Shown: piece by piece, positions 22,690 through 43,345 of the stretch
Layout of the letters: the number at the start of each line of letters is the position of its first letter
Position numbering within the stretch: position 1 is the first letter of the stretch
Assembly: GCF_002735305.1 (NCBI RefSeq)
Contig: NZ_PDYG01000064.1
Span: forward strand, 1-64,000
Source of the DNA: Agathobacter ruminis
GTDB taxonomy: Bacteria > Bacillota > Clostridia > Lachnospirales > Lachnospiraceae
Direction: 5' to 3'
DNA: 64,000 nt
Notes under the pieces: model-generated
Told to the model about the DNA's origin: nothing
What the model saw: only the letters and a program-made list of their open reading frames with translations
The model's database searches: none
Program-made: the position numbers and the translations under genes

Positions 22690-23802
22690 ATGAGCGAGAT
22701 AAAAGAGAAAAAAATTCGCCTGCGCCGAAAGGGCGAACGAAAAAAAATGAGCCGCGTCACGCGCAATCTGATTATTGCTGTGGTGGTTCTTTCGGTAATC
22801 GTGGGAATATTGGGAGCCGCACTGGTCTTAACGGATGTAGAGCTGCGAAAGCTGTCTGCACAGATGACTTATATGCAGGATACGGTCAGTGTCATCAATT
22901 CCAATCTGGATAATTTAGGAACCAATATCACTGCCCAATTGGAAGAAGAGACTTCACTTGTGGAAGATTATCAAATTAAGCTGAAGTCCATTAATTTTGA
23001 GACCAAAACCTATACGGTAGATGTGACAATCGTGCCAAAGGAATTCACGGAATCCACTGAGACCAGCGTCTATTTCGGTACCAAGGAATATCGCATGGAC
23101 AAAGACGGATTTACCTACCACACGACAGCGACACTTCCGATCAACGAAAGTTATGAGGGAAATGTCACGGTTCTTTTCACGGACGGAACCAAGCGCACTA
23201 CCGAAATCATCAAATATTATCATGGCATCGACATCAAAGGACATGATTATATCACCTGTACCGGCGAGACAGAACAAAGTATCAGCAAAGAGGGACTGCT
23301 CTCCGAAAAATCCAACTTAAACATCAAGGTTGACGGTGCACAGCTGTTTTCATTTGAAGAGATTTCGTATGTGGTATCCGTGAACGGCACGGAAGTATAT
23401 ACCTATAATCTGCTCGAGGAATATGAAAAGAAACAGGCTGCCGAAGCCGATACGGATGAACCGGAAGCCGGCCCTGAACCGGAAACAGAAACACAGACCG
23501 AAGATGCCGAATTTGAGACCGAGCCTGTAGACACCATGGAGCAACAGTTTGCACTTGAATATAAGCTCGAGAAACCGCTCGAGGACCTTGACCGCGTTTC
23601 TACCATGGTACGCCTCAAGACGACAGACGGATATATCATGACCTATGATATCAGCAACAGCACCATCACTGCTGCCGTCAATGCAGAAAAGCCGGAAGAT
23701 CCTCCAACCTATGCGGTCACAAAAGATGAAATCACACGGCTGCTGTTTATCTTTTATGATTCCAATGGGGGCACCTATCGCAAGACGGTTGCCATTCATT
23801 AA
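22690..23802 (+). CDS. Membrane-anchored extracytoplasmic protein of unknown function
   Basis: 370 residues. A basic cytoplasmic head (KKIRLRRKGERKK) is followed by one membrane helix (about 24-50, LIIAVVVLSVIVGILGAALV), a coiled-coil-like stretch, and two or more beta-rich (Ig-like) segments. An acidic Glu/Thr-rich insert (about 245-275) splits the outer part. No family is recognised. It has its own weak -10 (TAAAAT) just before ATG and no clear ribosome site. Placed after a two-component system, it may be a regulated envelope protein. A mobile palindromic element is inserted at its stop codon. Confidence 0.75.
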   Translation: MSEIKEKKIRLRRKGERKKMSRVTRNLIIAVVVLSVIVGILGAALVLTDVELRKLSAQMTYMQDTVSVINSNLDNLGTNITAQLEEETSLVEDYQIKLKSINFETKTYTVDVTIVPKEFTESTETSVYFGTKEYRMDKDGFTYHTTATLPINESYEGNVTVLFTDGTKRTTEIIKYYHGIDIKGHDYITCTGETEQSISKEGLLSEKSNLNIKVDGAQLFSFEEISYVVSVNGTEVYTYNLLEEYEKKQAAEADTDEPEAGPEPETETQTEDAEFETEPVDTMEQQFALEYKLEKPLEDLDRVSTMVRLKTTDGYIMTYDISNSTITAAVNAEKPEDPPTYAVTKDEITRLLFIFYDSNGGTYRKTVAIH

Positions 23803-23808
23803 TTTTAT
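23801..23808. repeat. Target-site duplication, left, of palindromic element copy 1
   Basis: AATTTTAT directly abuts the element. The partner at 24406-24413 reads AATTTTAC (7 of 8 identical). It includes the last two bases of the upstream stop codon. Confidence 0.6.
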
Positions 23809-24405
23809 GTTACCATTCACCGTCTGTATTGCCTAATATCCTCAGCCCATAAACCCGGTAAGCCCTTCACGATTTTGCGAATATTTTAGGTTTTCAATAT
23901 GTAAAAGGTGAGCATCACTCATGTGTCTTTTGATGAATGAACTATTTTGAAAAAAGGTTTATGAAGTGGCGGACACTTAATTTATTGATATTATGTACTC
24001 CTCAGTCTAAGGGATACCCGGGTTCAGACTCCGTTTGCCAAGTGAAATGACAAAATGAGTTTTGTGTTTATAAGCATCATGCATTACGCAACGTCGTGTT
24101 GCAATCGCATTTGCACCGCCATCCGTGGCGGCGCATGCCTATAAACATCAAAACTCATTTTTATTTCACTAGGGCGCACTCCAATTCACCCGGGTATCCT
24201 TTAGATGAGAAGTACATATACGAAAGTTTTGGGTGTCCGCCAACCATAAAACTTTTTTCAAAATTGTACAGGCATTCAAAAGACATATGGTAATCAGGAT
24301 GCGAGCTTTTGCATATATGAAAACCAAAATATTCTTGCAAAGTGAAGGGGATACCGGGTCTATGGGCTGAGGATATTTATCATAAAACAGACTATGAATG
24401 GTAAC
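23809..24405 (+). mobile_element. Palindromic MITE-like element, copy 1 (597 bp)
   Basis: The element runs from GTTACCATTCAC to TGAATGGTAAC and is an imperfect palindrome over its whole length. The arms pair, for example GGATACCCGGG with CCCGGGTATCC, and AAATGAGTTTTG with CAAAACTCATTT. The apex carries two small hairpins (GCAAC/GTTGC, 24088-24102; CCGCC/GGCGG, 24116-24131). It has no credible gene. A reverse-complement copy lies at 42742-43337. Flanking 8-bp repeats indicate transposition. It sits between a stop codon and a terminator (24430-24469) and, relative to the upstream gene, has the same orientation as copy 2. I know of no named family that fits; a non-autonomous element moved by an outside transposase is the best explanation. 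Confidence 0.85.
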
Positions 24406-24413
24406 AATTTTAC
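24406..24413. repeat. Target-site duplication, right, of palindromic element copy 1
   Basis: AATTTTAC, abutting the right end of the element; partner of 23801-23808. Confidence 0.6.
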
Positions 24414-24429
24414 AATCAACAAAGCACAC

Positions 24430-24469
24430 AAAAAACGAGTTTCTGCACGATGCAGGAAACTCGTTTTTT
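24430..24469. terminator. Bidirectional terminator at the end of the galactan operon
   Basis: AACGAGTTTCTGCA pairs with TGCAGGAAACTCGTT, flanked by A-runs and T-runs. It serves the minus-strand galactan operon and the plus-strand membrane-protein gene behind the inserted element. The ~100 bases from here to 24572 show no other feature. Confidence 0.9.
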
Positions 24470-42733: not shown

Positions 42734-42741
42734 TTTCTAAC
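42734..42741. repeat. Target-site duplication, left, of palindromic element copy 2
   Basis: TTTCTAAC, identical to 43338-43345 on the other side of the element. Confidence 0.8.
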
Positions 42742-43337
42742 GTTACCATTCACAGCATTCATTACAGTAGCATCCTCGCCCATGGCCCCGGTACGCCCTT
42801 CACTTTGCAAGAATATTTTGGTTTTCTAATATGCAAAAGCTCTCATCCTGATTTTCATGTGTCTTTTGAACGCCTGCACAATTTTGAAAAAAAGTTTATA
42901 GTTGGCGGACACCAAAAACTGTCGTATATGTACTTCTCAATCTAAAGGATACCCGGGTGAATCGGAGTGAACCTAGTGAAATAAAAATGAGTTTTGATGT
43001 TTATAGGCATGCGCCGCCACGGAAGGCGGCGCAAATGCGATTGCAACACGACGTTGCGTAATGCATGGTGCCTATAAACACAAAACTCATTTTGTCATTT
43101 CACTTGGCAAACGGAGTCTGAACCCGGGTATCCCTTAGACTGAGGAGTACATAATATCAATAAATTAAGTGTCCGCCACTTCATAAACCTTTTTTCAAAA
43201 TCGTTCATTCTCAAAAGACACATGAGTGATGCTCGCCTTTTGCATATTGAAAGCCTAAAATATTCGCAAAATGTGAAGGGCGTACCGGGGCCATGGGCGA
43301 GGATGCTATTGCAAGATTGCTGGCTGTGAATGGTAGC
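42742..43337 (-). mobile_element. Palindromic MITE-like element, copy 2 (596 bp)
   Basis: Reverse complement of copy 1, with the same termini (GTTACCATTCAC ... GTGAATGGTAGC), the same apex hairpins and over 100 bases identical in the inner arm. It is inserted after the queF stop and before the que terminator. Where the copies differ, several changes are matched on both arms: ATGGCCCC/GGGGCCAT here against ATAAACCC/GGGTCTAT in copy 1. Perfect 8-bp TTTCTAAC repeats flank it. Removing the element and one repeat rebuilds a short, sensible queF-terminator junction. No coding capacity. Confidence 0.88.
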
Positions 43338-43345
43338 TTTCTAAC
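43338..43345. repeat. Target-site duplication, right, of palindromic element copy 2
   Basis: TTTCTAAC; contains the queF stop codon (TAG on the minus strand at 43341-43343). Confidence 0.8.

Follow-up and report, generated by a model that had tools for sequence, protein, structure and literature searches.

Bacterial MITEs such as RUP, BOX, ERIC, Chunjie and QMITE1/2 are described, in the portions of the reports available to us, as gene-less sequences with terminal inverted repeats and target duplications that occur in many intergenic copies and include deletion derivatives; QMITEs yield small RNAs as well (PMC10969869, PMC5896051). REP/REPIN sequences, for which a tyrosine transposase has been described, are also extragenic palindromes dispersed in trans, with a length of 20-40 bp and a GTAG or CGTC tag according to the accessible sections (PMC3733652, PMC3116915, PMC2817692). 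At the RNA level, the closest relative of the locus reported here is RF01731 (TwoAYGGAY), which stems from a 2010 screen; in the part of its table at hand, the motif carries a 'y' as RNA, an 'n' in the column that follows (its legend begins with 'cis...'), and the distribution 'Human gut, gamma-Proteobacteria, Clostridiales' (PMC2864571). It was proposed in 2014 to bind CsrA (in the available part of PMC4333381), is listed in Rfam as cis-regulatory with a model of 168 nt, and has covarying pairs reported in the accessible portion of the Rfam 15 paper (PMC11701678). GGA-in-loop hairpins are shared by CsrB/CsrC/RsmY/Z, which carry numerous CsrA sites, whereas the element described here is dispersed and offers two at most (PMC4333381, same part). 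Finally, template switching between inverted repeats leads to homogenised arms and spacer inversion, both of which were observed here, but in the consulted parts of these papers it is presented as a process acting on inverted repeats of genes and genomes rather than as the driver of a transposon family (PMC8604942; PMC8794818).

The 64,000-nucleotide stretch of Agathobacter ruminis DNA analysed in this work (the window) contains two copies of a palindromic element that shares with MITEs its terminal inverted repeats, an 8-bp duplication (evident for the copies as a set), the lack of a transposase and a multicopy, intergenic occurrence. Relative to the MITEs compared, as documented in the available parts of the reports cited above, its distinguishing features are palindromy over the full length, arms that are matched within but divergent between copies, and a conserved RNA-motif tip of one kind that is also found on other arms; in addition, a parent IS was not found. 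With its 597 bp and its 8-bp duplication, as opposed to a tagged palindrome of 20-40 bp, it was rejected as a member of the REP group. We are highly confident that the palindrome is a mobile element, and it is likely to represent a non-autonomous, MITE-like transposon with a CsrA-decoy-like apex and arms kept by copying. Copy 1 and its surroundings comprise the following features:

22690-23802, forward strand: upstream gene of 370 aa, whose TAA stop codon adjoins copy 1
23801-23808, no strand: left target-site duplication AATTTTAT, overlapping the stop codon
23809-24405, no strand: palindromic element, copy 1, 597 bp
23809-23820, forward strand: left terminal inverted repeat GTTACCATTCAC
23839-23870, forward strand: left copy-specific stem segment (TCCTC...CTTCAC), pairing with 24342-24373
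24026-24184, reverse strand: apex of copy 1, RF01731 TwoAYGGAY, 62.1 bits (gathering score 43)
24088-24102, reverse strand: second apex hairpin, loop ACGAC, AYGGAY lost (by eye)
24112-24135, reverse strand: apex hairpin with an ACGGAU hexaloop (CsrA-type loop)
24342-24373, reverse strand: right copy-specific stem segment, pairing with 23839-23870
24394-24405, reverse strand: right terminal inverted repeat of copy 1, ATGAATGGTAAC, one mismatch
24406-24413, no strand: right target-site duplication AATTTTAC
24428-24469, forward strand: terminator hairpin downstream of copy 1 (approximate limits)

Eight of the nine inverted-repeat pairs between positions 23600 and 24600 lie inside copy 1, along its full length, with the ninth corresponding to the terminator, and alignment of the element with its own reverse complement yields a 74% match over bases 1-597. 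Its RNA fold reaches -304.1 kcal/mol, whereas 20 dinucleotide shuffles average -143.4 kcal/mol (SD 5.8; z -27.9). These values bear out the preliminary description, which had recognised a near-palindrome of about 597 bp with arms over its full length. Similarly, the flanking octamers AATTTTAT and AATTTTAC are identical at seven of eight positions and the left one overlaps the TAA of the 370-aa gene, six bases before the start of the element, as expected from the proposed 8-bp duplication with one change that reaches into the upstream stop. The two hairpins suggested for the apex were recovered by eye at 24112-24135 and 24088-24102, and the terminal repeats lie at the sites assigned to them, except that the right end reads ATGAATGG, with one mismatch to the left end, rather than GTGAATGG. 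The program-made list of open reading frames contains one of 65 aa within the element and one of 86 aa across its right end, and two others (63 and 156 aa) merely overlap its left end. A Pfam search with the 370-aa gene gave no match. Internal promoters are not in excess in copy 1 (three found, 2.7 expected from shuffles).

The second copy is located between a debranching-enzyme gene and queF:

42734-42741 and 43338-43345, no strand: duplications TTTCTAAC of copy 2, perfect octamers
42742-43337, no strand: copy 2, 596 bp, in reversed orientation relative to copy 1
42960-43119, forward strand: RF01731 apex of copy 2, 68.1 bits
43341-43844, reverse strand: queF-like gene, whose stop codon lies within the duplication of copy 2

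The claim of a transposable element had been made to depend on the existence of further copies, and these are indeed present: the genome that harbours the window (2.86 Mb, 134 contigs) yielded 104 BLAST matches to the element, grouped by hand into 41 places, 14 of which keep both ends and 16 of which reach a contig end, some being halves of one copy. The terminal sequence GTTACCATTCAC, with at most one mismatch, has 53 matches in this genome, as compared to 19 for the reversed control. Shorter forms of 463, 427, 423, 399, 364, 273 and 242 bp exist as well, and the central loss is nearly symmetrical in the short forms L051, L055, L060 and L066, but not in L058.

The flanks of 15 complete copies (14 from this genome and one from the sister species G031, with truncated and contig-end copies left out) match at 74 of 120 octamer positions, versus 35.2 (SD 6.2) after the right flanks were reassigned among the copies by shuffling; none of 2000 shuffles reached the observed value. 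For windows of 7 bp and 9 bp, the corresponding figures are 47 of 105 (29.2, SD 4.7) and 53 of 135 (35.6, SD 5.3). The expectation that copies would be flanked by 8-bp repeats thus holds for the set, with perfect duplications in copy 2, L051 and the sister's L237, but six of the 15 copies match at just 0, 1, 2, 4, 4 and 4 of the eight positions, which counts against mobility. Two of the poorly duplicated copies, L041 and L043, lie within inverted, terminator-like flanks. Better duplications go along with fewer differences between the arms (rho -0.57, p 0.03, n 14). A stop codon lies at most 70 bp away from 12 of 16 copies and at most 10 bp away from seven of them (raw counts, a gene being defined by the longest open frame within 700 bp).

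Elements of the IS200/IS605 type are not known to duplicate their target, and the 8-bp duplication does not fit a hairpin element of this kind. Carriage by phages or plasmids was likewise discarded, as the element has no match in plasmids or phages and no exact pattern match in viral contigs. No IS or transposase with the element's ends was met in passing among the sequence examined. A distinct repeat around AGCTGACATATTTCAT is found in the flanks of the element copies L038 and L062 and at the start of a G031 contig (L241:1-60).

When at most ten candidates per genome were scored in 60 genomes including that of the window, the 597-bp family was present only in the latter and in G031. In G031, the ortholog of the gene beside copy 1 has a stop codon followed by an ordinary terminator, with the element absent, and G031 queF has an ordinary terminator where copy 2 would stand. 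G031 is without a copy at either orthologous gene end, a comparison between sister species that is limited by the inversion of the 370-aa gene relative to its neighbours (L242) and by the splitting of the copy 2 site between the starts of two contigs, which show no element in approximately 340 bases per side. One side of the latter site holds a different inverted repeat. The ortholog of the debranching-enzyme gene next to copy 2 is adjoined by another large inverted repeat (L240:23-344; 63-nt arms, 89%), whose arms are separated by 196 nt and, as judged by eye, enclose similar units of approximately 65 bp. In the openly accessible literature searched, insofar as its contents were available, neither this element nor any placement of TwoAYGGAY within mobile DNA is described; the term 'undescribed' used previously is thus appropriate for the element itself, but not for its apex, a known RNA family.

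Both apices pass the gathering score of RF01731, and the first hairpin of the copy 2 apex has an ACGGAA loop. The window's family lacks the full pair of AYGGAY loops, one of the two having been lost, and the window apex is a diverged RF01731 member by score, not by motif. The palindrome differs from RF01731 in being far longer than the Rfam model and in the mixed gene orientation around the copies of the genome G016. An extension beyond the model, by 25-195 bases per side, was observed in 27 of 30 loci, each taken from a different genome; one of the remaining loci extends just 7 bases, and two have no value because the aligner paired a neighbouring stretch. The end sequences differ among the 30 loci (by eye). 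Pseudobutyrivibrio sp. MD2005 shows a 75% match to bases 64-532 of the element, at a locus that has a 46-bp exact outer stem with no 10-mer in common with the window element and adjoins a gene read as rpsB. The genome of the window itself (G000) contains a second palindrome family of 12 copies (L154-L164, L166) with the same kind of apex, GGA in both apex loops (by eye) and other arms, which is linked to the 597-bp element by BLAST over only 17-18 bases, in two copies (L155, a member by BLAST, was left out of the alignment; L165 is not a member). More broadly, RF01731 was detected in 12 of 35 genomes of the same genus, with 1 to 49 copies each, in 45 of 299 genomes of the family (43 above the cut-off) and in 28 of 291 genomes of the class (20 above the cut-off).

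The arms of the element are more similar within than between copies. For bases 29-72 from each end, which contain the 32-bp stem 23839-23870/24342-24373, arm agreement in 16 copies is 0.835 within copies and 0.741 between them (0 of 5000 permutations; the right end of L236 was assumed). No within-copy matching is seen at bases 76-115 of these copies (0.709 versus 0.718), and the inner arms contain approximately 29% mismatches, yet are conserved between copies. Mean stem identity between copies is 0.79, a value that includes the L042 row, which was parsed as having eight arm differences, compared with zero by eye. The same pattern is found for the outer 60 bases of the G016 copies, which score 67.5 within and 13.9 between copies, the best of 5000 permutations reaching 23.3 (n 42). 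The G016 copies studied comprise 47 of 50 matches, without the three weakest ones, and five intron-bearing or truncated copies among the 47 were left out of the arm score and the mismatch counts. Trimming and refilling of 3' ends was rejected as the source of matched arms, given that bases 13-30, near the ends, are unmatched within copies (by eye).

How arms change over short times can be seen by comparing G016 with its close relative G014, which shows matches of 94-98% around most common copies and of 85% around one. Eight orthologous pairs with 465 stem columns contain 30 one-sided, seven matched two-sided and three other two-sided differences, and the seven matched double changes, three of which are transversions, compare with 0.45-0.67 expected by independence (P about 7e-6). 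Four of the seven come from one pair (L113/L324), and four of the eight pairs have none; without L113/L324, three matched changes remain in 406 columns, versus 0.28-0.42 expected (P 0.009). Moreover, two of nine orthologous pairs show an apex that is turned around with respect to its flanks, and exact inverted matches in the flipped copies reach at most 22-27 bases. L201/L321, whose stem was replaced, was left out of the double-change count, and L318/L204, with an intron in one partner, was left out of both ortholog counts. Matched changes and apex inversions fit the copying of one arm from the other, as in the template switching described above. We find it reasonably likely that such copying at the DNA level keeps the arms paired, and hold this less firmly because four of the seven matched changes derive from one copy. 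The G016 copies show no evident target duplication (by eye), which counts against mobility, and all nine G014 stretches examined (of 33 copies) share at least one flank with a G016 copy; since flanks are common and no duplication is evident in G016, the RF01731 elements of these two genomes look old and vertical. L201 and L321 have similar flanks around two different TwoAYGGAY palindromes in which both arms are replaced, a difference that could have arisen by replacement or conversion, or by repeated insertions into the same site.

Stems selected as RNA should show G-U far above A-C mismatches, as is the case for 16 tRNAs from the loci studied (17 G-U, 0 A-C). The window's family has 56 G-U and 76 A-C (with mismatches common to all copies counted in each), and RNA-selected arms are therefore unsupported in this family. 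A 3' UTR hairpin of giant size, as envisaged in the preliminary description, is right in its geometry for copy 1, but the mismatch counts show no sign of selection on arm pairing in RNA. For the outer stems of single loci from 29 genomes, the counts are 62 G-U and 60 A-C, or 58 and 47 without two loci whose arms are hard to pair. A G-U excess is apparent in the pooled outer stems of G016 (104 to 55) and in 39 other loci pooled (113 to 73), and it is strong in six copies from G235 (43 to 8). RNA pairing may thus be selected in some lineages, with the reservation that copies within one genome share ancestry and are not independent.

With respect to CsrA, the 47 G016 copies contain 73 A-N-GGA-N hexaloop hairpins (two in 32 copies, one in nine and none in six), compared with six single hairpins in 1520 shuffled sequences. 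At least one such hairpin was found in 12 of 29 loci from other genomes, 12 of the 29 having been scored on the wrong strand. CsrA is encoded in 44 of 45 family genomes with RF01731 and in 110 of 254 others, and in 24 of 28 class genomes with RF01731 and in 71 of 263 others, counts that ignore phylogeny; within the class, the numbers are 20 of 24 versus 66 of 257 without the window's family and 17 of 20 for genomes above the RF01731 cut-off. The four class genomes with RF01731 but without CsrA come from a single family, with completeness values of 80-95%. Flagellin is as good a correlate (45 of 45 versus 111 of 254 in the family), and for this reason the co-occurrence shows an association of RF01731 with motile, CsrA-bearing lineages, not binding. 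Judging from the loop motifs and the co-occurrence, binding of CsrA by the wider RF01731 family appears slightly more probable than its absence, and it is doubtful for the degraded copy 1.

Taken together, we envisage that a DDE-type transposase acting in trans moves the element, making an 8-bp staggered cut. Its arms would be kept complementary at the DNA level, with one arm being copied from the other through quasipalindrome template switching or arm-to-arm gene conversion, as suggested by the matched changes and the apex inversions, and the same process would flip the apex. When transcribed, one strand of the apex could offer A-N-GGA-N hexaloop hairpins to CsrA, such that the copies may act, or may once have acted, as CsrA decoys.

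It is also conceivable that the palindromes are host-encoded, multicopy structured RNAs, i.e. CsrA-sequestering sRNAs whose stem is selected as RNA and whose dispersal is secondary and old. This idea would explain why A-N-GGA-N loops are kept in G016 far above the shuffled control while the hairpin stems differ, and it agrees with the G-U excess in G016, G235 and the pooled loci, the co-occurrence of CsrA with RF01731, the loci common to G016 and G014, and, in the parts of the papers at hand, the covarying pairs reported for the family by Rfam 15 (PMC11701678) and the CsrA proposal of PMC4333381. However, neither the window's family nor the 29 single loci have a G-U excess, the window copy has promoters at chance level, three of the seven matched changes are transversions and lack a G-U intermediate, and the 8-bp duplications point to insertion, so that we regard this explanation as unlikely. 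Far less probable is a bidirectional terminator or insulator kept at gene ends and immobile by itself: its sites do adjoin stop codons and, by eye, terminators, and convergent genes flank 17 of the 42 G016 sites that could be classified (of 47), but the other 25 are codirectional or divergent, duplications are present, and the G031 gene at the site of copy 1 reaches an ordinary terminator without the element.

Even for a transposon, the complementarity of the arms could reflect selection on a DNA hairpin that transposition requires rather than templated copying. The outer stem is paired without sequence constraint and without strand bias in the window's family, and ortholog differences are mostly one-sided, in line with this model; yet matched changes, transversions included, exceed expectation at a divergence of a few per cent, inner arms with many mismatches are conserved between copies, and the apex is inverted in some orthologs. 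We consider hairpin selection a serious possibility, albeit the less likely one. An assembly artefact, with repeats collapsed or flipped in draft genomes, would be compatible with the many places that touch a contig end in the window's genome and with the state of G014, a draft of about 50 contigs that forms one side of each inversion, but the same structure in the single-contig genome G016 and on a scaffold of Pseudobutyrivibrio sp. MD2005 makes it extremely improbable.

For the preferred reading of a palindromic transposon with copied arms, RF01731 would no longer stand for an independent cis-regulatory RNA but for the apex of palindromes that are mobile at least in part, and the CsrA-decoy proposal for Clostridia becomes testable in many hosts. 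The elements would also provide a natural example of long palindromes that arm-to-arm copying may hold paired with little sequence conservation, and a warning for RNA discovery, as covariation statistics would read arm-copied pairs as proof of RNA selection. It is tempting to speculate, although we consider it improbable in this full form, that TwoAYGGAY is no fixed RNA gene but an interchangeable tip carried by a class of mobile palindromes in motile Clostridia. These would act as recombinase-free, invertible CsrA decoys at dozens of 3' ends; through arm-to-arm copying their arms would drift yet remain paired and their tip would flip, so that the flanking transcript would alternate between the CsrA-binding strand and its complement.

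Group IIC introns prefer hairpin-type DNA targets. In four TwoAYGGAY copies of G016 (L204, L205, L207 and L208), a group II intron (RF02001, 132-137 bits) is inserted on the opposite strand beside the first apex hairpin, at the same point as judged by eye, and the G014 stretch L318 matches L204 solely to the right of the intron. By analogy, the TwoAYGGAY hairpin may serve as a group IIC-type DNA target of this intron. The RF01731 family of G023 (L294-L305) is rather homogeneous; most of its copies have CCTATAAGG-like ends, and a terminator-like T-run directly precedes several of them (by eye).
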